Source of the DNA: Actinostola sp. cb2023
Lineage: Eukaryota; Cnidaria; Anthozoa; Actiniaria; Actinostolidae
Length of the DNA stretch: 64,000 bases
Direction: 5' to 3'
Assembly: GCA_033675265.1 (NCBI GenBank)
Contig: JAUJYZ010000694.1
Coordinates: forward strand, 268,843-332,842
Shown piece by piece: positions 40,442 through 63,760 of the stretch. The stretch's first letter is position 1. The number at the start of each line of letters is the position of its first letter. A program made the position numbers and the translations under genes. Below the pieces are notes generated by a model. That model had not been told where the DNA came from and made no database searches. It saw only the letters and a program-made list of their open reading frames with translations.

Positions 40442-40956
40442 GTATATACTCATCACTATTCCATAGTTACGCATGTACATAGTTAATCCATTTTACTTTA
40501 TTTACTACTTTATTTACTTTATGATGTAATGTTTCAAATACTAGTCACTGTATTCTATTGGGGTTTCAAAATTCGAGTGAAATTTCAAATGCCGAAGCGC
40601 AGCTGAAATCATGTTTTACTGAATCTGATCAACCTTGTTATCAAACTTTTTGAACTCATGGGAGAGCTTTCTACCATTGTTTCAAAATACTGCACGTGGT
40701 ACAAATTAGAAACCCTGGTTGGTGGATTCCCTCATGAATAATTAATGAGAATCTGTCTTTGTAAGCACAAGCCCGCCTAGATTAGCTTTGCTATTTGCGG
40801 GTAGGTGTGTGTTACACTATGTATATATTAATCAATGTGAATAAACTGAACTGAAGTTCACCTCGTCTATCTAGTATCTTCGCAACCACAACACACCACA
40901 GGTTATTATGGCGCGCCGTTTCTTTCAGAATTAATGTTTCGCTTGATTATGGATTT
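40442..40956. other. Spacer before the satellite, nothing recognised
   Basis: AT-rich single-copy-looking DNA with no exon or repeat that could be supported. Confidence 0.4.
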
Positions 40957-41455
40957 GTCTACCGTGATGTGGTTAGAATACCGTAATGCTACTGTCACAA
41001 CTTGACTAAAATGCTTTCTGTCCGGCTTAAAATTTATACTACCGTGATAAATTCACTATACCTTGATAAAGTTTAACAGTACTACCGTAATACACTCATT
41101 CTACCTTAATAAACTTTATACTACCGTGATAAAAAAAATTCACCTGGGACTAGGGGTAGATTATACCACCGTGATTCATTCACTCTCTTGATAAAGTTTT
41201 ATACTACCGTGATTCATTCACTCTACCTTGATAAAGGTTTATACTACCGTGATACATTCACTCTACCTTGATAAAGTTTTACACTACCGTGATTCATTCT
41301 CTACCTTGATAAAGTTTTATACTACCGTGATTCATTCACTCTACCTTGATAAAGGTTTATACTACCGTGATCCATTCACTCTACCTTGATAAAGTTTTAT
41401 ACTACCGTGATACATTCACTCTACCTTGATAAAGTGGTATACTACCGTGATACAT
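40957..41455. repeat. Degenerate about 40-bp array (TACCGTGAT / TACCTTGAT)
   Basis: The alternation CTACCGTGATWCATTCACT + CTACCTTGATAAAGTTTTATA gives a unit of about 40 bp, tidy at 41,160-41,455 and increasingly decayed to the left. Both halves share CTACCKTGAT with the main satellite, so this appears to be the older edge or a related family. Confidence 0.85.
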
Positions 41456-41470
41456 TCATTGATACTGATA

Positions 41471-44400
41471 CGACCTTGATGCGTTTTCTACCTTGATGTA
41501 ACTCATACGACCTTGATGCGTTTTCTACCTTGATGTAACATAAATACGACCTTAATGCGTTTTTTACCTTGATGTAACATAATACAACCTTGATGCGTTT
41601 TCTACCTTGATGTAACATAAATACGACCTTGATGCGTTTTCTACCTTGATGTAACATAAATACGACCTTGATGCGTTTTCTACCTTGATGTAACATAAAT
41701 ACGACCTTGATGCGTTTTCTACCTTGATGTAACATAATACAACCTTGATGCGTTTTCTACCTTGATGTAACATAAATACGACCTTGAAACGTTTTCTACC
41801 ATGATGTAACATAATACGACCTTGATGCGTTTTCTACCTTGATGTAACATAAATACGACCTTGATGCGTTTTCTACCTTGATGTAACATAATACGACCTT
41901 GATGCGTTTTTTACCTTGATGTAACATAATACGACCTTGATGCGTTTTCTACCTTGATGTAACATAATACAACCTTGATGCGTTTTCTACCTTGATGTAA
42001 CATAAATACGACCTTGATGCGTTTTCTACCTTGATGTAACATAATACAACCTTGATGCGTTTTCTACCTTGATGTAACATAATACAACCTTGATGCGTTT
42101 TCTACCTTGATGTAACATAAATACGACCTTAATGCGTTTTCTACCTTGATGTAACATAATACAACCTTGATGCGTTTTCTACCTTGATGTAACATAAATA
42201 CGACCTTGATGCGCTTTCTACCTTGATGTAACATAATACAACCTTGATGCGTTTTCTACCTTGATGTAACATAAATACGACCTTGATGCGTTTTCTACCT
42301 TGATGTAACATAATACAACCTTGATGCGTTTTCTACCTTGATGTAACATAATACAACCTTGATGCGTTTTCTACCTTGATGTAACATAAATACGACCTTG
42401 ATGCGTTTTTTCTACCTTGATGTAACATAATACAACCTTGATGCGTTTTCTACCTTGATGTAACATAAATACGACCTTGATGCGTTTTTTCTACCTTGAT
42501 GTAACATAATACGACCTTGATGCGTTTTCTACCTTGATGTAACATAAATACGACCTTGATGCGTTTTCTACCTTGATGTAACATAAATACGACCTTGATG
42601 CGTTTTCTACCTTGATGTAACATAATACAACCTTGATGCGTTTTCTACCTTGATGTAACATAAATACGACCTTGAAACGTTTTCTACCATGATGTAACAT
42701 AATACGACCTTGATGCGTTTTCTACCTTGATGTAACATAAATACGACCTTGATGCGTTTTCTACCTTGATGTAACATAAATACGACCTTGATGCGTTTTC
42801 TACCTTGATGTAACATAATACGACCTTGATGCGTTTTCTACCTTGATGTAACATAAATACGACCTTGATGCGTTTTCTACCTTGATGTAACATAATACGA
42901 CCTTGATGCGTTTTCTACCTTGATGTAACATAATACAACCTTGATGCGTTTTCTACCTTGATGTAACATAATACAACCTTGATGCGTTTTCTACCTTGAT
43001 GTAACATAAATACGACCTTGATGCGTTTTCTACCTTGATGTAACATAATACAACCTTGATGCGTTTTCTACCTTGATGTAACATAATACAACCTTGATGC
43101 GTTTTCTACCTTGATGTAACATAAATACGACCTTGATGCGTTTTCTACCTTGATGTAACATAATACAACCTTGATGCGTTTTCTACCTTGATGTAACATA
43201 AATACGACCTTGATGCGCTTTCTACCTTGATGTAACATAATACAACCTTGATGCGTTTTCTACCTTGATGTAACATAAATACGACCTTGATGCGTTTTCT
43301 ACCTTGATGTAACATAATACAACCTTGATGCGTTTTCTACCTTGATGTAACATAATACGACCTTGATGCGTTTTCTACCTTGATGTAACATAAATACGAC
43401 CTTGATGCGTTTTCTACCTTGATGTAACATAATACGACCTTGATGCGTTTTCTACCTTGCAATTGATGTAACATAATACAACCTTGATGCGTTTTCTACC
43501 TTGATGTAACATAAATACGACCTTGATGCGTTTTCTACCTTGATGTAACATAATACAACCTTGATGCGTTTTCTACCTTGATGTAACATAAATACGACCT
43601 TAACGCGTTTTCTACCTTGATGTAACATAATACAACCTTGATGCGTTTTCTACCTTGATGTAACATAAATACGACCTTGATGCGTTTTTTTTCTACCTTG
43701 ATGTAACATAAATACGACCTTGATGCGTTTTCTACCTTGATGTAACATAATACAACCTTGATGCGTTTTCTACCTTGATGTAACATAAATACGACCTTGA
43801 TGCGTTTTCTACCTTGATGTAACATAAATACGACCTTGATGCGTTTTCTACCTTGATGTAACATACTGATACAACCTTGATGCGTTTTCTACCTTGATGT
43901 AACATAAATAGGACCTTAATGCGTTTTCTACCTTGATGTAACATAATACATGCAACCTTGATGCGTTTTCTACCTTGATGTAACATAATACAACCTTGAT
44001 GCGTTTTCTACCTTGATGTAAAATAAATACGACCTTGATGTGTTTTCTACCTTGATGTAACATAAATACGACCTTGATGCGTTTTCTACCTTGATGTAAC
44101 ATAATACAACCTTGATGCGTTTTCTACCTTGATGTAACATAAATACGACCTTGATGCGTTTTCTACCTTGAAGTAACATAATACAACCTTGATGCGTTTT
44201 CTACCTTGATGTAACATAAATACGACCTTAATGCGTTTTCTACCTTGATGTAACATAAATACAACCTTGATGCGTTTTCTACCTTGATGTAACATAAATA
44301 CGACCTTGATGCGTTTTCTACCTTGATGTAACATAACTACGACCTTGATGCGTTTTCTACCTTGATGTAACATAAATACGACCTTGATGCGTTTTCTACC

Positions 44401-47400
44401 TTGATGTAACATAAATACGACCTTGATGCGTTTTCTACCTTGATGTAACATAATACAACCTTGATGCGTTTTCTACCTTGATGTAACATAAATACGACCT
44501 TGAAACGTTTTCTACCATGATGTAACATAATACGACCTTGATGCGTTTTCTACCTTGATGTAACATAAATACGACCTTGATGCGTTTTCTACCTTGATGT
44601 AACATAAATACGACCTTGATGCGTTTTCTACCTTGATGTAACATAATATACGACCTTGATGCGTTTTTTTACCTTGATGTAACATAAATACGACCTTGAT
44701 GCGTTTTCTACCTTGATGTAACATAATACGACCTTGATGCGTTTTCTACCTTGATGTAACATAATACAACCTTGATGCGTTTTCTACCTTGATGTAACAT
44801 AATACAACCTTGATGCGTTTTCTACCTTGATGTAACATAATACAACCTTGATGCGTTTTCTACCTTGATGTAACATAATACGACCTTGATGCGTTTTTTT
44901 ACCTTGATGTAACATAAATACGACCTTGATGCGTTTTCTACCTTGATGTAACATAATACGACCTTGATGCGTTTTCTACCTTGATGTAACATAAATACAA
45001 CCTTGATGCGTTTTCTACCTTGATGTAACATAATACAACCTTGATGCGTTTTCTACCTTGATGTAACATAAATACGACCTGATGCGTTTTCTACCTTGAT
45101 GTAACATAATACAACCTTGATGCGTTTTCTACCTTGATGTAACATAATACAACCTTGATGCGTTTTCTACCTTGATGTAACATAAATACGACCTTAATGC
45201 GTTTTCTACCTTGATGTAACATAAATACGACCTTGATGCGTTTTCTACCTTGATGTAACATAATACGACCTTGATGCGTTTTCTACCTTGCAATTGATGT
45301 AACATAATACAACCTTGATGCGTTTTCTACCTTGATGTAACATAATACAACCTTGATGCGTTTTCTACCTTGATGTAACATAAATACGACCTTAATGCGT
45401 TTTCTACCTTGATGTAACATAATACAACCTTGATGCGTTTTCTACCTTGATGTAACATAAATACGACCTTAATGCGTTTTCTACCTTGATGTAACATAAT
45501 ACAACCTTGATGCGTTTTCTACCTTGATGTAACATAAATACGACCTTGATGCGTTTTCTACCTTGATGTAACATAACTACGACCTTGATGCGTTTTCTAC
45601 CTTGATGTAACATAAATACGACCTTGATGCGTTTTCTACCTTGATGTAACATAATACAACCTTGATGCGTTTTCTACCTTGATGTAACATAAATACGACC
45701 TTGATGCGTTTTCTACCTTGATGTAACATAAATACGACCTTGATGCGTTTTCTACCTTGATGTAACATACTGATACAACCTTGATGCGTTTTCTACCTTG
45801 ATGTAACATAAATAGGACCTTAATGCGTTTTCTACCTTGATGTAACATAATACATGCAACCTTGATGCGTTTTCTACCTTGATGTAACATAATACAACCT
45901 TGATGCGTTTTCTACCTTGATGTAAAATAAATACGACCTTGATGTGTTTTCTACCTTGATGTAACATAAATACGACCTTGAGGCGTTTTCTACCTTGATG
46001 TAACATAAATACGACCTTGATGCGCTTTTCTACTTTGATGTAACATAACTACGACCTTGATGCGTTTTCTACCTTGATATAACATAAATACGACCTTGAT
46101 GCGTTTTCTACCTTGATGTAACATAATACGACCTAGATGCGTTTTCTACCTTGATGTAACATAAATACAACCTTGATGCGTTTTCTACCTTGATGTAACA
46201 TAAATACGACCTTGATGCGTTTTCTACCTTGATGTAACATAATACGACCTTGATGCGTTTTCTACCTTGATGTAACATAAATACAACCTTGATGCGTTTT
46301 CTACCTTGATGTAACATAAATACAACCTTGATGCGTTTTCTACCTTGATGTAACATAAATACGACCTTGATGCGTTTTCTACCTTGATGTAACATAAATA
46401 CAACCTTGATGCGTTTTCTACCTTGATGTAACATAATACAAACTTGATGCGTTTTCTACCTTGATGTAAAATAAATACGACCTTGATGCGTTTTCTACCT
46501 TGATGAAACATAAATACGACCTTGATGCGTTTTTCTACCTTGATGTAACATAATACAACCTTGATGCGTTTTCTACCTTGATGTAACATAAATACGACCT
46601 TGATGCGTTTTCTACCTTGAAGTAACATAATACAACCTTGATGCGTTTTCTACCTTGATGTAACATAAATACGACCTTAATGCGTTTTCTACCTTGATGT
46701 AACATAATACAACCTTGATGCGTTTTCTACCTTGATGTAACATAAATACGACCTTGATGCGCTTTCTACCTTGATGTAACATAACTACGACCTTGATGCG
46801 TTTTCTACCTTGATATAACATAAATACGACCTTGATGCGTTTTCTACCTTGATGTAACATAATACAACCTTGATGCGTTTTCTACCTTGATGTAACATAA
46901 ATACGACCTTGATGCGTTTTCTACCTTGATGTAACATAAATACGACCTTGATGCGTTTTCTACCTTGATGTAACATACTGATACAACCTTGATGCGTTTT
47001 CTACCTTGATGTAACATAAATACGACCTTGATGCGTTTTCTACCTTGATGTAACATAATACAACCTTGATGCGTTTTCTACCTTGATGTAAAATAAATAC
47101 GACCTTGATGTGTTTTCTACCTTGATGTAACATTAATACGACCTTGAGGCGTTTTCTACCTTGATGTAACATAAATACGACCTTGATGCGTTTTCTACTT
47201 TGATGTAACATAACTACGACCTTGATGCGTTTTCTACCTTGATATAACATAAATACGACCTTGATGCGTTTTCTACCTTGATGTAACATAATACGACCTA
47301 GATGCGTTTTCTACCTTGATGTAAAATAAATACGACCTTGATGCGTTTTCTACCTTGATGTAACATAAATACGACCTTGATGCGTTTTCTACCTTGATGT

Positions 47401-50400
47401 AACATAATACAACCTTGATGCGTTTTCTACCTTGATGTAACATAAATACGACCTTGATGCGTTTTCTACCTTGAAGTAACATAATACAACCTTGATGCGT
47501 TTTCTACCTTGATGTAACATAAATACGACCTTAATGCGTTTTCTACCTTGATGTAACATAATACAACCTTGATGCGTTTTCTACCTTGATGTAACATAAA
47601 TACGACCATGATGCGCTTTCTACCTTGATGTAACATAACTACGACCTTGATGCGTTTTCTACCTTGTAACATAATACAACCTTGATGCGTTTTCTACCTT
47701 GATGTAACATAAATACAACCTTGATGCGTTTTCTATCTTGATGTAACATAAATACGACCTTGATGCGTTTTCTACCTTGATGTAACATAATACGACCTTG
47801 ATGCGTTTTCTACCTTGATGTAACATAAATACAACCTTGATGCGTTTTCTACCTTGATGTAACATAAATACAACCTTGATGCGTTTTCTACCTTGATGTA
47901 ACATATAATACGACCTTGATGCGTTTTCTACCTTGATGTAACATAAATACAACCTTGATGCGTTTTCTACCTTGATGTAACATAATACAACCTTGATGCG
48001 TTTTCTACCTTGATGTAAAATAAATACGACCTTGATGCGTTTTCTACCTTGATGAAACATAAATACGACCTTGATGCCTTTTCTACCTTGATGTAACATA
48101 ATACAACCTTGATGCGTTTTCTACCTTGATGTAACATAAATACGACCTTGATGCGTTTTTTCTACCTTGAAGTAACATAATACAACCTTGATGCGTTTTC
48201 TACCTTGATGTAACATAAATACGACCTTAATGCGTTTTCTACCTTGATGTAACATAATACAACCTTGATGCGTTTTCTACCTTGATGTAACATAAATACG
48301 ACCTTGATGCGCTTTCTACCTTGATGTAACATAACTACGACCTTGATGCGTTTTCTACCTTGATATAACATAAATACGACCTTGATGCGTTTTCTACCTT
48401 GATGTAACATAATACAACCTTGATGCGTTTTCTACCTTGATGTAACATAAATACGACCTTGATGCGTTTTCTACCTTGATGTAACATATATACGACCTTG
48501 ATGCGTTTTCTACCTTGATGTAACATACTGATACAACCTTGATGCGTTTTCTACCTTGATGTAACATAAATACGACCTTAATGCGTTTTCTACCTTGATG
48601 TAACATAATACATGCAACCTTGATGCGTTTTCTACCTTGATGTAACATAAATACGACCTTGATGCGTTTTCTACCTTGATGTAAAATAAATACGACCTTG
48701 ATGCGTTTTCTACCTTGATGTAACATAAATACGACCTTGATGCGTTTTCTACCTTGATGTAACATAAATACAACCTTGATGCGTTTTCTACCTTGATGTA
48801 ACATAAATACGACCTTAATGCGTTTTCTACCTTGATGTAACATAATACATGCAACCTTGATGCGTTTTCTACCTTGATGTAACATAAATACAACTTTGAT
48901 GCGTTTTCTACCTTGATGTAACATAAATACGACCTTGATGCGCTTTCTACTTTGATGTAACATAACTACGACCTTGATGCGTTTTCTACCTTGATATAAC
49001 ATAAAAATACGACCTTGATGCGTTTTCTACCTTGATGTAACATAATACGACCTTGATGCGTTTTCTACCTTGATGTAACATAAATACAACCTTGATGCGT
49101 TTTCTACCTTGATGTAACATAAATACGACCTTGATGCGTTTTCTACCTTGATGTAACATAATACGACCTTGATGCGTTTTCTACCTTGATGTAACATAAA
49201 TACAACCTTGATGCGTTTTCTACCTTGATGTAACATAAATACAACCTTGATGCGTTTTCTACCTTGATGTAACATAAATACGACCTTGATGCGTTTTCTA
49301 CCTTGATGTAACATAAATACAACCTTGATGCGTTTTCTACCTTGATGTAACATAATACAACCTTGATGCGTTTTCTACCTTGATGTAAAATAAATACGAC
49401 CTTGATGCGTTTTCTACCTTGATGAAACATAAATACGACCTTGATGCCTTTTCTACCTTGATGTAACATAATACAACCTTGATGCGTTTTCTACCTTGAT
49501 GTAACATAAATACGACCTTGATGCGTTTTCTACCTTGAAGTAACATAATACAACCTTGATGCGTTTTCTACCTTGATGTAACATAAATACGACCTTAATG
49601 CGTTTTCTACCTTGATGTAACATAATACAACCTTGATGCGTTTTCTACCTTGATGTAACATAAATACGACCTTGATGCGCTTTCTACCTTGATGTAACAT
49701 AACTACGACCTTAATGCGTTTTCTACCTTGATGTAACATAATACATACAACCTTGATGCGTTTTCTACCTTGATGTAACATAAATACGACCTTGATGCGT
49801 TTTCTACCTTGATGTAACATAATACAACCTTGATGCGTTTTCTACCTTGATGTAACATAAATACGACCTTAATGCGTTTTCTACCTTGATGTAACATAAT
49901 ACATTCAACCTTGATGCGTTTTCTACCTTGATGTAACATAAATACAACCTTGATGCGTTTTCTACCTTGATGTAACATAATACAACCTTGATGCGTTTTC
50001 TACCTTGATGTAACATAAATACAACCTTGATGCGTTTTCTACCTTGATGTAACATAATACAACCTTGATGCGTTTTCTACCTTGATGTAAATAAATACGA
50101 CCTTGATGCGTTTTCTACCTTGATGTAACATAAATACGACCTTGATGCGTTTTCTACCTTGATGTAACATAATACAACCTTGATGCGTTTTCTACCTTGA
50201 TGTAACATAAATACGACCTTAATGCGTTTTCTACCTTGATGTAACATAATAATGCAACCTTGATGCGCGTTTTCTACCTTGATGTAACATAAATACGACC
50301 TTGATGCGTTTTCTACCTTGATGTAAAATAAATACGACCTTGATGCGTTTTCTACCTTGATGTAACATAAATACGACCTTGATGCGTTTTCTACCTTGAT

Positions 50401-51955
50401 GTAACATAATACAACCTTGATGCGTTTTCTACCTTGATGTAACATAAATACGACCTTAATGCGTTTTCTACCTTGATGTAACATAATACATGCAACCTTG
50501 ATGCGTTTTCTACCTTGATGTAACATAAATACAACCTTGATGCGTTTTCTACCTTGATGTAACATAAATACGACCTTGATGCGCTTTCTACTTTGATGTA
50601 ACATAACTACGACCTTGATGCGTTTTCTACCTTGATATAACATAAATACGACCTTGATGCGTTTTCTACCTTGATGTAACATAATACGACCTTGATGCGT
50701 TTTCTACCTTGATGTAACATAAATACAACCTTGATGCGTTTTCTACCTTGATGTAACATAAATACGACCTTGATGCGTTTTCTACCTTGATGTAACATAA
50801 TACGACCTTGATGCGTTTTCTACCTTGATGTAACATAAATACAACCTTGATGCGTTTTCTACCTTGATGTAACATAAATACAACCTTGATGCGTTTTCTA
50901 CCTTGATGTAACATAAATACGACCTTGATGCGTTTTCTACCTTGATGTAACATAAATACAACCTTGATGCGTTTTCTACCTTGATGTAACATAATACAAC
51001 CTTGATGCGTTTTCTACCTTGATGTAAAATAAATACGACCTTGATGCGTTTTCTACCTTGATGAAACATAAATACGACCTTGATGCGTTTTCTACCTTGA
51101 TGTAACATAATACAACCTTGATGCGTTTTCTACCTTGATGTAACATAAATACGACCTTGATGCGTTTTCTACCTTGAAGTAACATAATACAACCTTGATG
51201 CGTTTTCTACCTACCTTGATGTAACATAAATACGACCTTAATGCGTTTTCTACCTTGATGTAACATAATACAACCTTGATGCGTTTTCTACCTTGATGTA
51301 ACATAAATACGACCTTGATGCGCTTTCTACCTTGATGTAACATAACTACGACCTTAATGCGTTTTTCTACCTTGATGTAACATAATACATGCAACCTTGA
51401 TGCGTTTTCTACCTTGATGTAACATAAATACGACCTTGATGCGTTTTCTACCTTGATGTAACATAATACAACCTTGATGCGTTTTCTACCTTGATGTAAC
51501 ATAAATACAACCTTGATGCGTTTTCTACCTTGATGTAACATAATACAACCTTGATGCGTTTTCTACCTTGATGTAAAATAAATACGACTTTGATGCGTTT
51601 TCTACCTTGATGTAACATAAATACGACCTTGATGCGTTTTCTACCTTGATGTAACATAATACAACCTTGATGCGTTTTCTACCTTGATGTAACATAAATA
51701 CGATCTTAATGCGTTTTCTACCTTGATGTAACATAATACATGCAACCTTGATGCGTTTTCTACCTTGATGTAACATAAATACAACCTTGATGCGTTTTCT
51801 ACCTTGATGTAACATAATACAACCTTGATGCGTTTTCTACCTTGATGTAACATAATACAACCTTGATGCGTTTTCTACCTTGATGTAACATAAATACGAC
51901 CTTGATGCGTTTTCTACCTTGATGTAACATAAATACGACCTTGATGTAACATAAT
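41471..51955. repeat. Satellite block, 38-39-bp unit, plus-oriented, about 10.5 kb
   Basis: Roughly 270 copies of ACCTTGATGCGTTTTCT + ACCTTGATGTAACATAAWACR. The unit is dimeric: both halves begin ACCTTGATG. The two common forms differ by ATAAATACG versus ATAATACA. Rare variants (CTTGCAATTGATG at about 43,457 and 45,289; ATACTGATACAACC at about 43,864, 45,770, 46,979 and 48,530; AATACATGCAACC at seven sites) recur together, showing larger duplicated blocks. Because 39 is divisible by 3, long repetitive open frames (MLHQGRKRIKVV type) appear on the minus strand; they are artefacts. Confidence 0.97.
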
Positions 51956-52460
51956 ACTAGGAACAACAATTTCGTCATATCATTGACTAAAATACGGAGT
52001 TTGGAAATGATGTTTGATCACTTTTATTTAACCAATTTCCCTCATCGTCTGCCTGGACATTCTTGGGTAATCGTAGCAGTTATACGGAGTTATATACCTG
52101 GTTGAATTTAATAATTGCAAAAGAAAATCCCGTAACCTATCAGCGGAATAACACATTTCTAAATAATATGATGATTGAAGTTTCGGTTATTCGATATTTG
52201 AAAAATTCAGAAATAAATAAATCATACTTCAAAAGGTCAGACATCGACGTGTAACAGGCTTGTTGTATTTGTGGTTTCCGGTGATCACAAGTAATTATTT
52301 TTACCTCTAGTTCTACAGATTCAGTTGTGATCAGTCGGTTAAGCGAAGTGATACTGATGGAATTCACTGAGTTTATTGATGTAGTCTTTAGACTTTGTTC
52401 TGAAGTAGAACGGAGGATTCATTCGTCGGACTCAAATGTACGGTGGCCCATAAGTGTCAC
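51956..52460. other. Spacer between satellite and HECT gene
   Basis: No recognised domain or RNA. It would hold the promoter of the gene starting at 52,750; no TATA-type element could be assigned with confidence. Confidence 0.45.
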
Positions 52461-52660
52461 ATCAAATACAAATCGCTCACATCAAATACAAATTGCTCAC
52501 ATCAAATACAAATCGCTCACATCAAATACAAATCGCTCACATCAAATACAAATCGCTCACATCAAATACAAATCGCTCACATCAAATACAAATCGCTCAC
52601 ATCAAATACAAATCGCTCACATCAAATACAAATCGCTCACATCAAATACAAATCGCTCAC
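52461..52660. repeat. 20-bp tandem array, ten copies
   Basis: ATCAAATACAAATCGCTCAC occurs exactly ten times with one substitution. It ends about 90 bp before the ATG of the HECT gene. Three open frames through it are repeat artefacts. Confidence 0.97.
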
Positions 52661-52749
52661 ATCGTGGAGGCCTGGATACCACTTACAGATCGCGAAGCAT
52701 TATGGGAATTTCTTCCTACGTTAATGACGGACTTCACGTGTTCAAGATC

Positions 52750-52822
52750 ATGTTTTGTTCCAGCTGTGGAGCTAGTATACTACCTAACAATAGCGGCCGG
52801 TTTTGTTCTAATTGTGGAAAAG
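52750..52822 (+). CDS. HECT gene exon 1 (zinc ribbon)
   Basis: ATG followed by CxxC (residues 3, 6) and CxxC (19, 22), ending phase 1 at gttagt. It lies 90 bp downstream of the 20-bp array. Chosen as the start because the ribbon begins at this Met, as in many zinc-ribbon proteins, and because the integrase gene opposite starts the same way. Confidence 0.75.
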
Positions 52823-55800
52823 GTTAGTATAATGCATAGTGTCATACAGTGCTGTGGTAAAGGATCGTTGGTACAAATCGGGTATAGCACTTTGAAATGA
52901 AGCCAAAATAAGAAAATTATGAGCCCCTGGTCCTATCACCTATGCTTTATTCCTTTTTACCTTAACTTATATTAATTACTGACTACCAAGTGTTGAACTA
53001 AATTCTTGCAAGTATTCTTGCAAGATTTAGAGGGAATTAGTGTATTTAGAAACCTTCCTAGCCAGTTCTTGTAAGTCTGAAATCTGTATGACGTTCAAAG
53101 TGGGCGGTGGGTTTTTTGTTTAGCTCTTGACGTAAGCGCTTATAAGCTTAATTTAAATTGGTTTTATGGATAGCTGACGAGTGTCGAAGTGATTCATAAT
53201 CAACAATGTTATTACATACAGTAACTTATATACAACTTGTATACTACATGTATATTACAAATGTAAAAAACTGTCATTGTCAATTACTTCAAGTTCACAA
53301 ACAATAGATTGATAGACTTGTTACTTCGACTTTGGTGTTTGGAAAAACATCATAAAGTGAGTTTGTCGTACCGTACCTCCATTTGTTTTCATGTTCATCC
53401 ACCATAATATACTCTATAACGTTGAGAGGGGGTGGGTGGGTCTTGAACCTAACATACAAATGTAATAACGCTAAGCGTGCCAAAATCGATATGTGGATGC
53501 CCCCTAACAAATAAAGTAAATGTAGAAATACACTATAATATATAAGCCATAATTTTGTCTATAATTACAGTTCCCAATGAATTAGTGGAGAAGTACGGAC
53601 ATGGGGAGGTTTTCACTGAAACGTGTCCAACGTGTGGCTTTCAAGAAGAGCTTTACTCTTCTGGCGTACACGAGTCAAGTGGCTGTTTAAAAATTTATTC
53701 AGTAGATGATGAGTTTGAGTGTCCACGCTGTATTACAAAGCAGCATGACTCAGAAATACATGCAGGTACTCATATTCATTAAGTTTTAAATATGTAAAAA
53801 ATACATGGGGATATGTAGATATTAATAATATATTGTCAGTTGATAGAGTGATTTTATTAAACACATCAACTGATCAAAGAGGTATTAGTCTAATAGACAT
53901 TTGGTATATAACCCTATATTAATACTACAATTTAAAACAAGCAAGAGCATAATGCATACATGTATCTAACTTCACTTTCCTGTCAGTACAACTATTACAA
54001 AGCATGTATCATCAGGATTCTACTAATTATGTAATGTTCTTTCATATTTCATTAGAACTCCTCGTCTCACCTGATGAAGAAGCACATGGTGCTGCTAGTC
54101 CTAAACCAGTCTTGTCTTTTCAAGATTACAAGATAGCTAAGGGAAAGCAGTGGAATTCAAGAGTGAAGGGACAACCAAAGGGTGGAAAATCAAAAAAGGA
54201 AAAGTCCAATGATGTAGTGATCTTTATCAGCTTAATGGAATGGAATGAAAATGTTTGCTGTCTCAAACTAAAAAGGGGCAAAAGAATAGCATTAAAAGTA
54301 CCTGTAACCTCACAATACTCATCTCGATCTGAAGATGAATGCAGAGGAGAAATGGAAGAATTACCATAGTAACCTATACGATGAGGAACAAGTCTATGTT
54401 CTTCTTTACGAAGATGGCCAGAAAGCACTTTTTTTGCCTGGGGGAAAGGAGGTATTTTGCTTGAAGAAATACCAGGAAGAATTGGGTAAAGATTACAACA
54501 GGATAACATTGTACTTATGCACAGTAACTGACTATAATATTTCAATAGGAAAAGATGAAGTACATGTTCATGATTCAGATTCCAATGATGAAATGGGCCC
54601 ACCACCCTCCAAGTTTGCAAGATTATCAAATGGTTCTAGCTCATATATTGATATTGATAAAACCTATGATGATGATGGTAACACTTCATGCATACTTCAA
54701 TTAAAACATGATGAAGAACTAGCCAAGGAGCTGGAAAAGCAGCTGAACAAGCCAGTAGATGTTGCAATTTGCAAACCTGATGATGAATGTAAAGATCCAA
54801 GCTCAGTAGTGAAAGCTTTGGAAAAAAGGGTTGATCATTCAGAGCAGCTCTCCTTAGTCATAAGAAGAGGGGCTCCTTTAACAAGGGTATTGTCTCTCTG
54901 GAAAAGGGAGGTGAGTAAAAAGTCCCCAGAGAAAAAGCTAGTAGTTCAGTACCATGGAGAAGAAGGAGTAGACAATGGTGCTATTGCAAAAGAGTTTTTA
55001 TCTGAAATCACCAAGGACATAAGGAGGACAATGTTTCCAGATGGAAGTCCAATAAATTCCACATACCATGTGCAAAATGGGAACTTTAAAGCTTGTGGGC
55101 AGATCATTGCTGTAAGTCTGGCACAGGGTGGCCAACCCCCTTGTTTTATAGATGAGAGTGTGTATGATCTACTAATTGATCCTGATGTGGATTTAAAAGA
55201 ACTTGATCAGGAGAAATACCTTACTGCAAAGGAGAAGGAAATGATTAACAGCATTAAAGAAGATGTCAGCTCACACCATGAGGTCATCATTGATCATGGC
55301 TTTACTGGAGTGATTAACCAGGAGAACATTGATGAAATAGTGAAGTCTGTTGTGGTCTGTCTTGTTACAAGGAAGAATGTATTTCTGAAAGAGTTTATGG
55401 CGGGTTTGCAGCTATATGGATTGGCCAGTATTATTATCCACAACCCAAAAGCCTGTAAATCACTATTGGTGCAGCAGGATCTTCAAGAGGCTGTGACTGC
55501 AAACGATGTATTTGCTATGATACAACCTGAATATTCACCATTGGGCACTTCAAGGAGAAATATTGAAGAAAAGCTTATCGACTTTCTTCAAGATTTCTTA
55601 TTTCACCTTGAAGATGATTCAAACATTGCAGGATATCAATCAGCCCTAGCTTGGAATTACGATGATGGTGAGGGTGATGATCTGTATTGTGACATGCCAA
55701 ATGAAAAGTTTGAAATGGCTGAATTGACACCAGCTGGAGTTATGCAGTGGCTCACAGGACAGAATCACAAACCCCTCAATGGGGAGATCTTGAAGGTAAT

Positions 55801-55979
55801 TGCACATTTTGACCATGACTGCCTTTCTCAAAATCCCAAAACACAAAATCTGCTTTCCTCGAGTGGCAGCCTGTTCTCGTGAAATCACTTTCCCAACAGC
55901 GCATATGGGAAATTCTGAAGATTTCCAGCAAGTCTTTCTGTTGGCATATTGCAAGGGTCAAGCTTTTGGGAGGCCATGA
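52750..55979 (+). CDS. Zinc-ribbon + HECT-type E3 ubiquitin-ligase-like gene, three exons, two frame breaks
   Basis: Exons: 52750-52822, 53571-53765 and 54056-55979, with donors gttagt and gtactc and acceptors ataattacag and tttcattag; phases agree. Exon 1 encodes a zinc ribbon (MFCSSCG...FCSNCG). Exon 2 adds CPTCG and CPRC pairs. Exon 3 has DYKIAKGKQW, a VYVLLYEDGQ / FCLKKYQEELGKDYNRITLY module, then a HECT-like region (LVVQYHGEEGVDNGAIAKEF, a version of the HECT N-lobe start) and the C-lobe. The HECT catalytic Cys is probably in RVAACSREITFP (Cys codon 55,872), followed by HMGNSEDFQQVFLLAYCKGQ and TGA at 55,977. Two +1 shifts interrupt the frame, near 54,345-54,350 and in CCCAAAACAC near 55,838. 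The longest uninterrupted piece is 54,335-55,882. The family is common in cnidarians and fish; its link to a transposon is inferred here. Confidence 0.8.
53571..53765 (+). CDS. HECT gene exon 2
   Basis: It starts VPNELVEKYGHGEVF and contains TCPTCGFQ and FECPRCITK, a second likely zinc-binding unit. It is phase 1 at both ends. The flanking intron sequences are AT-rich and unremarkable. Confidence 0.78.
54056..55979 (+). CDS. HECT gene exon 3 (HECT domain, two frameshifts)
   Basis: The first part (54,056 to about 54,345) is in one frame, the bulk (to about 55,838) in the next, and the catalytic C-terminal piece (to 55,979) in the third. Strong conservation on both sides of each break argues that they are recent indels or assembly errors. 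Confidence 0.78.
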
Positions 55980-56801
55980 ATCTACAGATACATGTACATT
56001 TGCATTCCAGGCCACTACTATTGTAATTTAACAAGGAACTGCAAGTGTCTGTCCAAACTGATTCCTATTCTCAGAAACATTAACCAAAGTTTGGCAACTT
56101 ACATTGAACTATATTTGTGTTCCAGTTATTGCATTATGTTATGAATGCATCTGATTATTGTTATGAATGCTGATTATGTAAAAGAAATTCTTCATCAATA
56201 ATGGAGGCTCACAATAACTGTTACAAGTTGTATTGCTTAGAACAAAACTTTACCAGTCAATGACTGTTGGAAATAATACAGGTTTGACTGTTCAAAGCCT
56301 AATTTTGGCCAGAAGTACAGTATGGACCATTCACCAACCATTATTTTGTATGCTGCAGTGGCATAGACAAAAGTTGTTGTTCAATTTATATTATTATATA
56401 GTAATTGACTTTATCAGTCATTTGCATTTTTACACTATTTTTGTGCGGTCATCTGGTATCTATTATAGATTTTACATGTACAATGAATTTCTTTCACCAA
56501 CTACATTTATATTAACCTTCAAGTTATCAACAAATAACATGAACCAGTTCATGTGTATAGACTATGAACCATGCTAGCCTATTAACGTGATTAGACCCAT
56601 TACAGTTTGCCTCAATGTTACCTACTTTCAAATGTTTGTGTGTGGTTTTTTTTTTGGGGGGGGGATCTGGGGGCTGGTGCTTCAAGTGTCTCCATATCAA
56701 TGAATGTTAACAAGAAATTAAAGAAGCAATATTCAAAGGAATAGTCATGTGGTCAGAAATGAGACAATATTGAACCAATCTGAATAGGTTTATTTCTAGT
56801 A
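55980..56801. other. Gap between the convergent gene ends
   Basis: AT-rich 3' flanks of both genes. No exon of either gene was recognised. A poly-T/poly-G stretch lies at about 56,647-56,663. Confidence 0.5.
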
Positions 56802-56866
56802 TTAATTTGAAACTTGAACCAGTGTTTTGTATAATGCAAGTGCATCTTGCCAATTACTTGGTTGTT

Positions 56867-57367
56867 CTATGGCCAAGTGTTCTTGTGCATATTCAAAATA
56901 TTCCTGGTAGTCATTCTTTTCGGGCTCTTCGACAATGTGATGCAAAAACATAATTCCTTTGAGTCATCGGTATTTCCATCTTGAAATTTCTGGCTGCACC
57001 ATGAAGTTCTGGAAATAAGAAACAATGAATCAGGGCGCACAGGTATTGTGTTGTGTCTTGATTTCCGAATCCTGTGGGAATTCCAGTGATCTTTCATGTA
57101 ATCAAGCTCTTTCTGGAGAACTTTGTTAAAACAGTACCATAAACATTCCATGCAAAGCACAGATGAAGTATCAATCACACCCTGAAACTCTAAATCTGTG
57201 AAAAACCTTCTCCACCATATAGAATGACTCTTTGAGAAATAAGACCACCATCCTTCAATTCTCTGGTTTCGTGGTGATGCGACATACCTATGTGCATCAT
57301 GATTGTCACGAAAGAATGTCTGAATCGCTGCTGCTAGTCCATTTTCGGTTCCTAAATCTGTTATCAA
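56867..57367 (-). CDS. Integrase gene: second Asp, Glu and C-terminus
   Basis: It begins ITDLGTENGLAAAIQTFFRD and includes YVASPRNQRIEGWWSYFSKS and WNSHRIRKSRHNTIPVRPD. After about 57,010 the conserved C-terminal part (HGAARNFKMEIPMTQ ... YQEYFEYAQEHLA) is in another frame and reaches a TAA at 56,802. Confidence 0.75.
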   Translation of the reverse strand: MITDLGTENGLAAAIQTFFRDNHDAHRYVASPRNQRIEGWWSYFSKSHSIWWRRFFTDLEFQGVIDTSSVLCMECLWYCFNKVLQKELDYMKDHWNSHRIRKSRHNTIPVRPDSLFLISRTSWCSQKFQDGNTDDSKELCFCITLSKSPKRMTTRNILNMHKNTWP

Positions 57368-57369
57368 TT

Positions 57370-57986
57370 CTACTGGACAACCCCAACCTCTGAAACTGTT
57401 TCAACAAAATATGATGCAATTTTGTCTGGAGAATTGTTTGATCGAGTTACCTCTAGCCATAATATTTTTCGACTGAATCCATCGATTCCACCATGAATTG
57501 GAAAACCCCAATGTTTCAACTTATCGTAACCATCCATATGCCATGCATAGTTTGGCCCAGGATTGTTGTAGGTTCGCCTTTTTAAGCGGTGTCGTTTTCT
57601 TTCTTCTGTTCCCTCTGGATCCATCTCCTTCAGCAAATCCTGTACAATAATTCGAGGAACCCTTAGACCTTCCATTTCTAGGGTATGCCATATTGCTCGA
57701 TACCCCATAGATGACGAAGGGCCTTGGATCAGCTCACCCATGCGCTTTTGGACCTTCAAAAACTTGTCATTAAAGTTGTCTTCATCTGCAACACCACGCC
57801 TCTTTTAACCCATATTGTTTTAAATCGTCGTAATAGTGTACTACGACTCATTGGATGCTGATGGCGCTCAGAAAGAAAATGAAGAATATCTTTATATTCG
57901 AATCCACGATTGAAGTAATATTTAATCACCTCTTCTTCGTCAAATCTCCCCTCTTGTTGGTCATCATCTGTGTCTGAATCTGGCAT
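57370..57986 (-). CDS. Integrase gene: HTH region and first catalytic Asp
   Basis: Two open stretches (57,986-57,756 and 57,759-57,370) cover the acidic N-terminal part, the HTH-like helices and the first half of the catalytic core (HMDGYDKLKHWG, GGIDGFSRKILWLEV). The break between them lies in short A runs. Confidence 0.75.
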
Positions 57987-58211
57987 TTGCTCCTCTTCAC
58001 TTGAACGAGCAGATGAGGCTAAAAGTAAAAGGCAGTCGAGAACACACTTAATTACGATTCAATATTAAGTCAAAGGAAGAACGAATGTATATAACAACAT
58101 AATTTGCTAACCTTGACCACAAAAAGAACAAAAATTCGCTTGTAAAGGCAGTTCAGAGGACCCACAGGCTCAACATAACATCGTCTGCAGAGAGGACGCC
58201 ATTTTATTTTT

Positions 58212-61200
58212 GTATTATGTTACATCAAGGTAGAAAACGCATCAAGGTCGTATTTTGTTACATCAAGGTAGAAAAACGCATCAAAGTTGTATTATGTTAC
58301 ATCAAGGTAGAAAACGCATCAAGGTCGTATTATGTTACATCAAGGTAGAAAAACGCATCAAGGTTGTATTATGTTACATCAAGGTAGAAAACGCATCAAG
58401 GTCGTATTTATGTTACATCAAGGTAGAAAACGCATCAAGGTCGTATTATGTTACATCAAGGTAGAAAACGCATCAAGGTCGTATTTATGTTACATCAAGG
58501 TAGAAAACGCATCAAGGTTGTATTAGTGTTACAATCAAGGAGGAAAAACGCATCAAGGTCGTATTTATGTTACATCAAGGTAGAAAACGCATCAAGGTTG
58601 TATTATGTTACATCAAGGTAGAAAACGCATCAAGGTCGTATTATGTTACATCAAGGTAGAAAAACGCATCAAGGTTGTATTATGTTACATCAAGGTAGAA
58701 AACGCATCAAGGTCGTATTTATGTTACATCAAGGTAGAAAACGCATCAAGGTCGTATTATGTTACATCAAGGTAGAAAACGCATCAAGGTCGTATTAGTT
58801 TAGGTAGAAAAACGCATCGAGGTCGTATTTATGTTACATCAAGGTAGAAAACGCATCAAGGTCGTATTTATGTTACATCAAGGTAGAAACGCATCAAGGT
58901 CGTATTTATGTTACATCAAGGTAGAAAACGCATCAAGGTTGTATTTATGTTACATCAAGGTAGAAAACGCATCAAGGTCGTATTATGTTACATCAAGGTA
59001 GAAAACGCATCAAGGTTGTATTATGTTACATCAAGGTAGAAAACGCATCAAGGTCGTATTATGTTACATCAAGGTAGAAAACGCATCAAGGTTGTATTAT
59101 GTTACATCAAGGTAGAAAACGCATCAAGGTCGTATTTATGTTACATCAAGGTAGAAAACGCATCAAGGTCGTATTTATGTTACATCAAGGTAGAAAATGC
59201 ATCAAGGTCGTATTTATGTTACATCAAGGTAGAAAACGCATCAAGGTTGTATTTATGTTACATCAAGGTAGCAAAGGTCGTATTACGCATCAAGGTAGAA
59301 ACGTCAAGGTTGTATTATGTTACATCAAGGTAGAAAACGCATCAAGGTCGTATTATGTTACATAGTGTTACACGCAAGGTTGTATTATGTTACACATCAA
59401 GGTAGAAAAACGCATCAAGGTCGTATTGTATTATGTTACATCAAGGTAAAAACGCATCAAGGTCGTATTTATGTTACATCAAGGTAGAAAACGCATCAAG
59501 GTCGTATTTATGTTACATCAAGGTAGAAAAACGCATCAAGGTCGTATTTATGTTTACATCAAGGTAGAAAACGCATCAAGGTTGTATTATGTTACATCAA
59601 GGTAGAAAACGCATCAAGGTCGTATTATGTTACATCAAGGTAGAAAACGCATCAAGGTTGTATTATGTCAAGGTAGAAAACGCATCAAGGTCGTATTTAT
59701 GTTACATCAAGGTAGAAAACGCATCAAGGTCGTATTTATGTTACATCAAGGTAGAAAAAAACGCATCAAGGTCGTATTTATGTTACATCAAGGTAGAAAA
59801 CGCATCAAGGTCGTATTATTATGTTACATCAGGTCGTATTTATGTAGAAAACGCATCAAGGTCGTATTCTAGTGTTACATCAAGGTAGAAAACGCATCAA
59901 GGTTGTATTATGTTACATCAAGGTAGAAAACGCATCAAGGTCGTATTATGTTACATCAAGGTAGAAAACGCATCAAGGTTGTATTATGTTACATCAAGGT
60001 AGAAAACGCATCAAGGTCGTATTTATGTTACATCAAGGTAGAAACGCATCAAGGTCGTATTATGTTACATCAAGGTAGAAAACGCATCAAGGTCGTATTT
60101 ATGTTACATCAAGGTAGAAAACGCATCAAGGTCGTATTTATGTTACATCAAGGTAGAAAACGCATCAAGGTTGTATTATGTTACATCAAGGTAGAAAACG
60201 CATCAAAGTTGTATTATGTTTACATCAAGGTAGAAAACGCATCAAGGTCGTATTATGTTACATCAAGGTAGAAACGCATCAAGGTCGTATTTATGTTACA
60301 TCAAGGTAGAAAACGCATCAAGGTTGTATTATGTTACATCAAGGTAGAAAAACGCATCAAGGTCGTATTTATGTTACATCAAGGTAGAAAACGCATCAAG
60401 GTCGTATTATGTTACATCAAGGTAGAAAACGCATCAAGGTCGTATTATGTTACATCAAGGTAGAAAACGCATCAAGGTTGTATTATGTTACATCAAGGTA
60501 GAAAACGCATCAAGGTCGTATTATGTTACATCAAGGTAGAAAACGCATCAAGGTTGTATTATGTTTACATCAAGGTAGAAAACGCATCAAGGTTGTATTA
60601 TGTTACATCAAGGTAGAAAAACGCATCAAGGTCGTATTTATGTTACATCAAGGTAGCAAACGCATCAAGGTTGTATTTATGTTACATCAGGTAGAAAACG
60701 CATCAAGGTCGTATTATGTTACATCAAGGTAGAAAACGCATCGAGGTCGTATTTATGTTACATCAAGGTAGAAAACGCATCAAGGTCGTATTATGTTACA
60801 TCAAGGTAGAAAAAACGCATCAAGGTCGTATTTATTTTACATCAAGGTAGAAAACGCATCAAAGGTTGTATTATGTTTACATCAAGGTAGAAAAAACGCA
60901 TCAAGGTCGTATTATGTTACATCAAGGTAGAAAACGCATCAAGGTTGTATTATGTTACATCAAGGTAGAAAACGCATCAAGGTCGTATTATGTTACATCA
61001 AGGTAGAAAATGCATCAAGGTCGTATTTATGTTACATCAAGGTAGAAAACGCATCAAGGTTGTATTATGTTACATCAAGGAGGAAAACGCATCAAGGTCG
61101 TATTATGTTACATCAAGGTAGAAAACGCATCAAGGTTGTATATTATGTTACATCAAGGTAGAAAACGCATCAAGGTCGTATTATGTTACATCAAGGTAGA

Positions 61201-61298
61201 AAACGCATCAAGGTCGTTATTATGTTACATCAAGGTAGAAAACGCATCAAGGTCGTATTTATGTTACATCAAGGTAGAAAACGCATCAAGGTCGTATT
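58212..61298. repeat. Satellite block in inverted orientation, about 3.1 kb
   Basis: About 80 units of TACATCAAGGTAGAAAACGC + ATCAAGGTYGTATTWATGT, the reverse complement of the 41,471-51,955 satellite. It carries more indels (A4-A6 runs, lost half units) than the left block. It starts about 10 bp upstream of the integrase gene's first ATG, so the satellite must supply or replace that gene's promoter. Confidence 0.97.
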
Positions 61299-62180
61299 CT
61301 AGTGTTTGTTACGCACGCTCACCCGTTCTCAATTACATTAGTAATTAATCCCTACTTCTGACGAGGGAAAGGTTAATGTGCGCTTCGGATTACAGTTTTT
61401 CGAAAGCTTAAACCAACGCGTTTATATCAATCTCCAAATTAATAACACTAAAGTCAACGACGTAAAAGAGACATTGATGCAACTGCCAGACAATCCCCAA
61501 ACGACTTTGTGAGTATTGTAGGAACATTGTTGTTGTGCCTTTCCATAGATTCATTGTTGTATTTACGTGTAAATTTGCAGTTGACTTTATCTTCACTCTA
61601 CCGATCGACCCCGTGTATTGTGATGTAAGTTCAAGAATAATAAGGGAAAACTGGTGAAATCAGTGTGTGGTGTTTTAAAGCTTAAATCAAGTAACGGCCC
61701 GCCACGAGGACGCGAAACAGTCAAAAAGTCTACAACCAAGCTACACGAAATCGTCGACTGAAGGACAACAACACCGTATTAAACAAAGACAACCGATAGC
61801 CATTTATCGAGCGACTGACCGTCTTTTGAGAACTTAGCAACCTCAAAATATCAAAGGACAACTATCGAGTAGGTATAAACCGTCCAAAAGCCCCCAAAAA
61901 TGATATTTCAAAAGTATTTGAAGATTTGAACCACGATTTATTGATGTGTTTTTGTAATTGTTGGAAATCGCCAAAGTCATGGAAAGGTCATCCCGCGTGG
62001 GCGTGCACGAAAACGAGGCTGGCATAATTTTGCATACAATTTGCATTTCCACCGGAAGTTCGTGAAAATGCCACCAAAGATCGATGTTAAGAACTCTCCT
62101 TGGGAAGATGAGGAAACTCAATTCACAGTTTGGTGAATTGTTAGAAGAATTTGACGTTTTGTCGCAACAAAACCACATTT
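61299..62180. other. Right flank of the satellite, nothing recognised
   Basis: Unique-looking sequence with no domain found. If the satellite-bounded unit is a transposon, its right terminus would lie here or at the satellite edge. Confidence 0.4.
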
Positions 62181-62181
62181 A

Positions 62182-63760
62182 GAAAGGCTAACAACTGTAT
62201 TTGACGAGATTGAAACCAAGTACAGAAGTATTAAGAAACTTCAAGAGAATATCGCTAATAAGTTGTTTGATGCAGATGATGGAGATGATCGTTTGAAAGA
62301 CATTGAAATCGCTGGATCTAAAGTTGTAAAAACGACGTATGTACAATTGGCACAAAAATACGCTACATATCAGAAAGGATTTACTCTACAAAAGGTCATG
62401 AATCTACTATGCCAAGTCAGAACAAGATGCCATAGACGCATGACCGCGGCAGTACAAGATGGCAGAATCTTTAGATCAAAGCCTATACAAGTGCTCTTGA
62501 AAGGTTGCCAGTACTCTGGGATGGAAACGACCGTAGAACTACAGACCTGGGAAGAAACGGAATTTATCACTCAATAGCAATATCGACAAGATCCAGATGA
62601 ACAACTACAGCGAGGAAAAAGCGATGCCCAAGGCTACTGGGACGAGCAGTGCAGACCTGTACGACTATCGTCCAGCTTGGAGTATCCTTGATGTCTAATT
62701 TTGAAGATAAGCGAAAGCTTATGGACACTCTCCTCCGAGATGAAACCAAACTTGAACCTGTAAGCAAAGACTCAAAAGTCTCTCACAATGTTCGCTACAC
62801 CGTCCAAGTACTTCACGACAATGGAAGACACTGGCTGTTCTGTGAACAACGCTCTGAATCACCGTTCTTTAGGTCTCACTCTATCAAGCTCGATTCCCGA
62901 GACAACGTAGATTTGGAGAGAGATGAAAAACAGAGTAAAGAAAGAAAATGTGGAAAATCTGTTGGATTGGCTCCCATCAATAAGCGAGTCTTCGGTCTAG
63001 AGGAAGATAGATTTTGAAACGACAGACATATAGAACGGAGCCAACGAGTAGTTCATCAAACAAACGGAAACCATTGCCAACGCTACCTCAGTTCCCGATG
63101 ACGCACCTGCCCACTTGGCATGTCTGAAAAGCATCCTCTCCCAGCATGCCCTGCTACCAGAGCTCACCGTGAGTCAACGATGGGATGCATTAAAAGCACC
63201 AAGGTTGTCGAAGTGTTTTGAGTCTCATCAACCAACGATTGTAAGAGACGGATGGTACTCTGTGATAAGTTTTTTTTTTGGGGGGGGCGAAAGAATCACC
63301 ATCGTTCTCTGCACAGTGAAAAGAGATGCTAACTTCTAGTTCCAATCGAATCCTATACGGCATCTCCATTCTACAGTGAACGGTTGCTGCAACACACAAC
63401 ATCCAGCTAGTACCGGCAAAGAGGAGAACAGTGTTGAAGAATAGTCACTGGGTTGTGCCAGTTGCAACAAATCAAAATCCACGACGTCAACGGAGAGTTC
63501 ATCGAAATCTTGCCATGTTGGAGCAGCGGTTCTAACCAATCTATTATCCAAAAGGCAGCCAAGCACCTTGGACTCACAGGACCATCACCTCACCTTCCAA
63601 TGATCTCGCTGGAGAAAAACAAATCAGAAATGGCAAACCTTACTTCAAATTGTACTTGCTCCAACAGCAAAGAAAGCATCACAAATACACTCCAGGTCTA
63701 CACAGTAGGCAGACCCTGTGGCAACGCCAAACAATCTCAGAGCGTGTAGAAGAGTATTAC
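62182..63760 (+). pseudogene. BEL/Pao-like retrotransposon remnant (gag to protease)
   Basis: Pieces occur in the expected order on the plus strand: a coiled-coil-like RLTTVFDEIETKYRSIKKLQ segment (62,182-62,577), a segment of unknown identity (62,649-63,017), a zinc-knuckle-like region (63,115-63,330; LTVSQRWDALKAPRLSKCF and, in another frame, HHRSLH), and a protease-like stretch (63,453-63,749; HDVNGEFIEI, AAKHLGLTG). The protease active-site region is frame-shifted. RT and integrase are not seen before the window ends. The BEL/Pao call rests on the HHxxLH signature and element order, not on a search. Confidence 0.45.

Follow-up and report, generated by a model that had tools for sequence, protein, structure and literature searches.

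The question raised by this locus is whether satellite arrays, a ubiquitin-ligase-like gene and an integrase that lie together in a sea anemone genome belong to a single mobile element. The window, that is, the whole stretch of 64,000 nucleotides analyzed here, forms the end of contig C942 in the 424-Mb assembly of Actinostola sp. cb2023 (GCA_033675265.1, contig JAUJYZ010000694.1, positions 268,843 to 332,842 of the forward strand). In it, a 10.5-kb block of a 39-bp satellite and a 3.1-kb block of the same satellite in the opposite orientation enclose ∼6.3 kb that carries two convergent genes, one HECT-like (plus strand) and one encoding an integrase (minus strand). A first-pass annotation had proposed the whole as a candidate giant transposon with the HECT-like gene as cargo. 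The locus very probably consists of two nested DNA transposons, later damaged: a satellite-armed transposon (E2) and, inside it, a HECT-integrase transposon (E1). A second satellite-armed family is referred to as E4. The coordinates of all features are collected in Table 1.

Both satellite blocks were recovered with Tandem Repeats Finder (TRF), the left one with 269 copies (93% matches) and the inverted one with 80 copies (90% matches), and each 39-bp unit was made up of two half units (17 + 21-22 bp), TACRACCTTGATGCGTT and TTCTACCTTGATGTAACATAA. The integrase matched the Pfam family rva_4 (PF24764) on two pieces (6e-15 and 6e-13). The satellite blocks and the convergent gene pair of the first-pass annotation were thus confirmed. 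The limits that it had given, 41471..61298, mark the satellite blocks seen in the window and not the ends of the element. The left arm reached outward beyond 41468 to 40907, through a diverged 40-bp array and a 99-bp unique end, and the right end lay beyond the window, on contig C742.

Contig C742 was 99.46% identical to the core of the window over 6277 columns and carried the same long terminal repeat (LTR) retrotransposon at the same point of the satellite, from which we infer that both contigs represent one locus. The retrotransposon (LTR of ∼413 bp, TGTTACGC..GAAACA, duplication GTGTT) interrupts the right arm, so the boundary seen at 61298 is a false one. This position was rejected as an element end, given that on C742 the interruption was followed by a further 8.1 kb of 39-bp units, a 40-bp array of 0.7 kb and a matching outer end. 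When inverted, this outer end aligned with window positions 40907-41005 over 99 bp with two differences, the similarity beginning exactly at TATGGCGCGCCG, and the same six bases, GGTTAT, flanked E2 on both sides. Measured across the two contigs, the full E2 would span ∼29 kb without two later insertions, the LTR retrotransposon and an insert of ∼600 bp, and ∼37 kb with both, and the joined flanks expected at an empty site would read CACAGGTTATCATG. The right end region of E2 also contained an insert of ∼600 bp (C742:36566-37166) with the terminal inverted repeat TTCTTCGTGTGCAA.

E2 is a multicopy family. A genome search with its outer end gave 40 listed matches, this locus included (44 candidates, 40 of them scored), most of which began at the base equivalent to 40907. 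An exact 21-base form of the end gave 58 matches, some of them belonging to E4. Inverted pairs of E2 ends were found on 13 contigs besides this locus. Both ends were read in 10 of these pairs, C54, C1526 and C1592 being left out of the duplication reading, and an exact 6-bp direct duplication was present in seven of the 10 (C219, C1449, C1358, C225, C389, C1226 and C780). When the 20 ends of these 10 pairs and the end in the window were compared, 15 of the 21 were identical over their first 94 bases, and the family therefore moved recently. With inverted ends recurring on other contigs, mostly with duplications, and with two contigs showing the locus, an assembly artefact is an unlikely source of the inversion.

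The satellite pattern itself gave 1270 genome matches (775 + 495), compared with none for the reversed control. Since tandem arrays are also common in this genome, the blocks could be taken for an ordinary genomic satellite that genes or transposons happened to enter, with the inversion arising from a chromosomal rearrangement. We consider this explanation exceedingly improbable. The 39-bp arrays adjoined an E2 end on six of seven contigs (100 of the 1270 places; the exception was C49), the E2 ends occurred in inverted pairs with 6-bp duplications, and the E2 motif graded from the terminal repeat to 40-bp units and then to 39-bp units. One copy, on C225, was built of 40-bp arms only. E4 resembled E2: its first 21 bases were the same, and it had inverted arms of a 21-bp satellite, 0.7 to 2.6 kb long. 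Two of three E4 copies showed 6-bp duplications, AGTGCT on C927 and CTCTGG on C874, and no direct 6-bp duplication was found for the copy on C882. Satellite-armed transposons are a recurring design in this genome.

As the outer ends and GGTTAT enclose the arms and both genes, the satellite arms and the HECT-integrase pair might still move as one unit, the pair acting as transposase and helper. The ends of E1 and E2 are also alike (TACGGTGGCCC and TATGGCGCGCC, 7 of 11 bases by eye), both lineages give 6-bp duplications and, with its right end lost, E1 could now move only as part of E2. Nevertheless, both genes were absent from the middles of all four other E2 copies read (C54, C78, C93 and C225), in which no intact gene was found. 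The left interior of the window (51947-52438) recurred in pieces of 92 to 96% identity in three of these four middles, those of C54, C78 and C93. In C54 and C78, this interior ran on from CAAATG into GGCTTCAGG.. and ∼400 bp missing from the window, where CAAATG is followed by TACGGTGGCCCATAAG. On the basis of these uninvaded copies, the HECT-integrase segment entered E2 at CAAATG. The window has lost the right end of E1 together with the right interior of E2, and the join at 58211/58212 was identical in C742.

At the exact E1 spot, the E2 copy on C93 (C93:40500-42120) carried an unrelated insert of ∼400 bp flanked by repeated ACTCAAATG, and the spot is a possible insertion hot spot. The interior of E2 also retained a frame that weakly matched a protein fragment of E4, with an E value of 0.005 for the window copy and of 7e-11 to 7e-25 for C54, C78 and C93. 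No Pfam match was obtained for this fragment, which may be the N-terminal portion of an integrase from a different branch.

E1, for its part, has ends of its own. A both-ended copy on C1067 showed TACGGTGGCCCATAAG at each end, 20-bp repeats inside each end and the duplication GATTTG; four insertions interrupted it, and their junctions overlapped by 6, 2, 3 and 8 bp. Contig C673 held a copy with an intact left end, a deletion in the HECT gene and a broken right end, and also a second family (C673:346704-351668), which shared the 16-base end and had identical inverted ends of ∼340 bp containing 20-bp repeats, together with fragments of both genes and the duplication GAAATG. Fifteen HECT-type copies were examined (the window, C673 twice, C1067, C581, C947, C1249, C1005, C474, C1097, C1386, C636, C790, C1141 and C1178). 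Nine of them had both ends, each with TACGGTGGCCCA, and a target-site duplication, which was of 6 bp in eight (C1067 and C673, as above; C1005 and C1097, ATTTTG; C1386, GATAAA; C581, TACAAC; C790, CAATAG; C1141, CAATCA) and of 7 bp in one (C636, GTCATTC). The subterminal repeats of the copies looked at measured ∼20, 41 or 43 bp. On C1249, at positions 216900-218198, a HECT-integrase element had at least 1.3 kb of a 17-bp satellite, with inverted matches, at its expected left end; this is another transposon-satellite junction.

The genome search with the HECT protein gave 86 listed matches (304 candidates), which grouped into 52 loci, and that with the integrase gave 100 listed matches (978 first candidates). 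An integrase lay within 8 kb of 32 of the 52 HECT loci, compared with 0.0037 expected per locus, and the two genes were convergent in all 32 cases and in no case otherwise oriented. Among the 52 loci, only C942 and C742, which represent this locus, had one of the 40 listed E2 ends at a distance of 250 kb or less. The 39- and 40-bp motifs were absent around the E1 relatives on C673 (346-436 kb) and C1067 (170-230 kb), and the tandem repeats found on C581, C947, C1249 and C1005 did not include the 39-bp satellite. By its linkage and ends, the HECT-integrase pair is a recurring transposon design, a lineage.

These results separate what stands from what falls in the first-pass annotation. The outer ends, the GGTTAT duplication and the multicopy family bear out a giant transposon armed with inverted satellite. 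The HECT gene is not its cargo, and the two genes are not part of the same unit, E1 being a separate, nested element. The pair did recur elsewhere in the convergent arrangement and with shorter inverted repeats and target-site duplications around it, as that annotation had proposed to check, whereas only this one of the HECT loci lay near a listed E2 end. With the integrase first exon also carrying a stop here, movement of arms and genes as a single unit is very improbable, and as the origin of the locus it is largely refuted.

Several observations weigh against two nested transposons of recurring design. The outer right end of E2 was read on a different contig, and three of the 10 E2 pairs lacked a direct 6-bp duplication, those on C541 and C93 showing inverted copies of one flank and that on C62 showing none. 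Six of the 15 HECT-type copies showed one end only; for some of them, the stretch examined was a guess. No listed integrase was found within 8 kb of 20 of the 52 HECT loci, with 100 of the 978 integrase candidates listed. Two of these loci are fragments of the C1067 copy, and the unpaired loci may pair with integrases beyond the 100 listed. Nor does each of the 52 loci count as independent: C942 and C742 represent a single locus, C1005 and C1097 have flanks in common (with the same duplication, they are probably one site), and C1249 and C474 have a common flank on one side. A HECT gene lay nearby for only 27 of the first 36 integrase matches and for 7 of the 64 that followed, and some integrases of this lineage may therefore dispense with a HECT gene. 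Finally, when HECT and integrase distances were compared for 7 pairs, no significant relation emerged (273 of 5040 permutations).

On C541 and C93, the two E2 flanks were mutually inverted (tttccggtatgttc), and the same flanks occurred on both contigs. Either E2 lies there within a larger palindrome, or the assembly folded back.

The HECT piece of the window gave no Pfam match at E ≤ 1. Among 36 chosen relatives, PF00632 (HECT) was found at this threshold in six, with a best value of 2e-07. An AlphaFold model of one relative, P0002, had a mean predicted local distance difference test (pLDDT) score of 79. Compared with the PDB, it gave 372 matches at E ≤ 10, and all 45 at E ≤ 0.001 were HECT ligases by title; the template modeling scores (TM-scores) by query were low, 0.22 to 0.36. 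The cysteine of the HECT C-lobe was invariant in all 36 chosen relatives. A strict motif around it was present in 90 of 120 listed relatives, every one with Cys, the other 30 being often shortened or frame-shifted; with a looser pattern, 103 of the 120 matched, 101 of them with Cys and one each with T and R, and 17 did not match. The window frame is without the C-lobe because of a frame break, and the C742 copy has it. The HECT fold and its catalytic cysteine are thus conserved, and the protein is a putative ubiquitin ligase.

The integrase relatives considered were the best 120 of 835, for which PF24764 was precomputed, and the D, D and E motifs occurred together in 110 of them. A PDB sequence search with the integrase piece gave no match. 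Both genes start beside a transposon end with a small zinc-ribbon exon (CxxC..CxxC) followed by GTTAG. A zinc ribbon was found at the start of 7 of 120 HECT and 3 of 120 integrase relatives, numbers that may be low because spliced models are a minority of the database entries; the Pfam scores of these ribbons were under the curated cut-offs. The stop in the integrase zinc-ribbon exon, at codon 4, was present in both C942 and C742, and stop-free copies exist elsewhere. Both window genes carry frame breaks, some of which differ between the two contigs and are thus assembly or haplotype differences. The E1 copy of the window is probably not active, as judged from these lesions, and long open HECT frames occur in several copies in the genome.

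Outside this genome, the named HECT relatives came from corals and octocorals, and a tunicate appeared among the integrases. In Dendronephthya gigantea, LOC114535677 (HECT) and LOC114535679 (integrase) have neighboring locus numbers and lie on contigs of equal length, 697,552. As an indirect sign of linkage, contigs of equal length were counted between the HECT and integrase lists (118 of 120 used; P0036 and P0080 left out), which gave seven pairs compared with 0.85 expected (maximum of 6 in 2000 shuffles); above 4.5 kb, there were six pairs compared with 0.12 expected (maximum of 3), a count that is equally indirect. The pair P0118/P0214 is doubtful, since its integrase is identical to P0136, yet there is a 48% difference between the HECT proteins. 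No relative in viral contigs was confirmed, and the phage collection contained none. Prokaryote genome contigs gave two weak matches in metagenome-assembled bins, one of them a sponge symbiont. The relatives P0063 and L018, filed under bacterial bins (gammaproteobacterial and sponge Cycloclasticus symbiont), are probably host contamination.

The ends and duplications of both elements match those of IS3EU/GingerRoot, a likeness drawn from described features. PMC10045372 describes TA..TA termini, duplications usually of 6 bp and an integrase-like DDE core without an HHCC domain, and supposes relatives in animals; neither HECT nor ubiquitin occurs in the main text of that paper. The elements described here share the TA..TA ends (E1, TACGGTGGCCCA; E2, TATGGCGCGCC at both ends in the 10 pairs and at this locus), the 6-bp duplications (eight of the nine both-ended HECT-type copies; E2, seven of the 10 pairs and the window locus) and an integrase-like DDE transposase (PF24764, with the motifs in 110 of 120). 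They differ in the convergent HECT gene and in the zinc ribbon on both proteins.

For the arms of E2, the closest comparison is with foldback elements. In Tetris of Drosophila virilis, according to PMC4079207, foldback arms reach ∼1.7 kb with units of ∼220 bp and duplications of 8 to 10 bp, and tandem repeats in the terminal inverted repeats of this apparently non-autonomous element can expand to satellite-like arrays. E2 has the same long inverted arms of tandem repeats and, in the middles read, no intact gene; it differs in its arms of ∼11 kb, 39-bp units, 6-bp duplications and TA..TA ends. FB and the sea urchin TU are further foldback elements, and the majority of foldback families, though not every one, have Mutator-like duplications of 8 to 10 bp. 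In form, E2 resembles a foldback element, but membership of the Mutator-type foldbacks was rejected because its duplications are of 6 bp.

Two other systems bear on the gene content of E1. RAG-like transposons carry convergent RAG1L and RAG2L genes, as described in PMC7204232. E1 has in common with them two convergent genes in one transposon, one of which encodes a DDE recombinase. RAG1 itself carries a RING-type ubiquitin ligase, and the RAG transposase family is unrelated to this integrase; in E1, by contrast, the ligase is a separate HECT protein. Peptidase genes are known passengers beside DDE transposases in plant and animal transposons, Ulp1 in Mutator-like elements and OTU in Ginger1, and E1 likewise has a ubiquitin- or SUMO-pathway gene in this position. 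However, those proteases remove a modifier, and a HECT ligase attaches it. No description of a HECT gene in a DNA transposon was found in the literature searched, which left most subscription papers and Repbase outside its scope.

In the history that we favor, E2 is a foldback-like transposon whose ∼20-bp subterminal motif, behind the TATGGCGCGCCG.. ends, expanded as 40- and 39-bp units to arms of ∼11 to 12 kb, and it inserted at GGTTAT. E1 is an element of ∼5 to 6 kb with TACGGTGGCCCATAAG ends, 20-bp subterminal repeats and two convergent genes, one for an integrase-type transposase and the other for a HECT ubiquitin ligase; it entered the interior of E2 at CAAATG. A later deletion fused the gene end of E1 to the right satellite arm, which was also cut by the LTR retrotransposon. 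The ends, the duplications and the DDE core motif point to cut-and-paste movement with 6-bp staggered insertion. On account of their position and recurrence, the ∼20-bp repeats are putative binding sites, by binding which the integrase would cut and paste. A similar argument for repeats as binding sites is made, from Galileo, in the Tetris paper (PMC4079207).

A functional role of the HECT protein in transposition is a possibility that we put forward tentatively. The fixed linkage, the conserved cysteine and the like zinc ribbon suggest that it works with the integrase. With its zinc ribbon, it may be recruited to the ∼20-bp repeats, as the integrase would be, or else to the transposase, and may ubiquitinate the transpososome or local chromatin proteins, thereby regulating or completing transposition; turnover of the transposase and clearing of chromatin proteins would be the leading options. 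The first-pass annotation had suggested that a HECT ligase could act during integration on chromatin or repair proteins of the host. For this functional part alone, and weighed apart from the readings of the locus, the HECT gene might instead have been passive cargo of one transposon ancestor, kept by hitchhiking, in line with the 66 of 100 listed integrase matches that had no listed HECT gene nearby. We think this unlikely, as the cysteine and the fold are conserved across divergent families, the convergent order is fixed (32 of 32), the first HECT exon is a zinc ribbon like that of the integrase, and the gene has kept long open frames in several copies and is present in corals and octocorals.

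Table 1. Features of the locus in the window (positions counted from its first base) and on contig C742
Feature	Contig	Position	Strand	Basis or remark
E2 target-site duplication, left copy GGTTAT	Window	40901..40906	+	Same six bases beyond the outer end, C742:37265-37270
E2 outer terminal inverted repeat, TATGGCGCGCCG...	Window	40907..41005	+	97 of 99 bases equal to inverted end C742:37166-37264
E2 diverged 40-bp subterminal array	Window	41033..41458	+	TRF; inverted counterpart C742:35820-36522; motif also after other E2 ends
39-bp satellite, E2 left arm	Window	41468..51946	+	TRF, half-unit analysis
E2 left interior with coding-frame remnant	Window	51947..52438	+	92-96% identical pieces inside E2 copies C54, C78, C93
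CAAATG, left flank of E1 insertion; candidate duplication, right copy lost	Window	52433..52438	+	Uninvaded C54, C78: CAAATG, then GGCTTCAGG
E1 HECT-integrase transposon; intact left end (TACGGTGGCCCATAAG), right end lost by deletion into satellite	Window	52439..58211	+	Both-ended copy on C1067
E1 20-bp subterminal repeats, (TCACATCAAATACAAATCGC)n	Window	52457..52663	+	TRF; inverted counterpart at right end of C1067 copy
HECT exon 1, zinc ribbon (CxxC..CxxC), then GTTAG	Window	52750..52822	+	Putative splice site
Probable HECT exon 2, two more CxxC pairs	Window	53571..53765	+	Open frame; putative exon limits from splice signals
HECT main exon(s), reading frame broken near 54330 and 55830	Window	54056..55979	+	Second break absent in C742
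Convergent integrase (DDE, PF24764 rva_4) with several frame breaks; approximate upper limit	Window	56802..58020	-	Frames, Pfam
Integrase exon 1, zinc ribbon (CxxC..CxxC), stop at codon 4	Window	58112..58181	-	Seen in C942 and C742; putative exon end
39-bp satellite, first part of E2 right arm	Window	58212..61298	-	Resumes after LTR element, C742:27695-35799
LTR retrotransposon in E2 right arm; first LTR 61307-61719; runs off contig	Window	61307..64000	+	Second LTR C742:27284-27693, GTGTT both sides
39-bp satellite, right arm	C742	18009-21132		
LTR retrotransposon	C742	21141-27693		Flanked by GTGTT
39-bp satellite resumes	C742	27695-35799		
40-bp array	C742	35820-36522		
E2 matching outer end	C742	37166-37264		Inverted; GGTTAT at 37265-37270

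The window contains further tandem arrays beyond the 39-bp satellite (TRF). Those at 533-1442, 2837-3464, 37201-38007 and 38436-38959 have units of ∼73 to 92 bp and are, as far as seen, unrelated to it. Two open frames, 34921-36234 (+) and 28189-29154 (-), resemble seven-helix receptors by eye, and the first of them had just two relatives in the protein search.

A lineage with fixed convergent HECT and integrase genes would be a natural, testable case of ubiquitin signaling built into a mobile element, and it could explain coral genes with HECT or integrase-core domains that are listed as uncharacterized. In E2 and its sister family E4, satellite DNA grows within the ends of a transposon, where an arm can hold as many as hundreds of units, and there are many young copies to compare. 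It is conceivable, and we advance it with reserve, that in a lineage of DNA transposons from marine invertebrates the transposition machinery consists of an IS3-like integrase and a dedicated HECT ligase, both addressed by similar zinc ribbons to arrays of ∼20-bp subterminal repeats. Ubiquitination of the transpososome or of nearby chromatin proteins would then be built into the reaction, and runaway arrays would yield satellite, as in E2.

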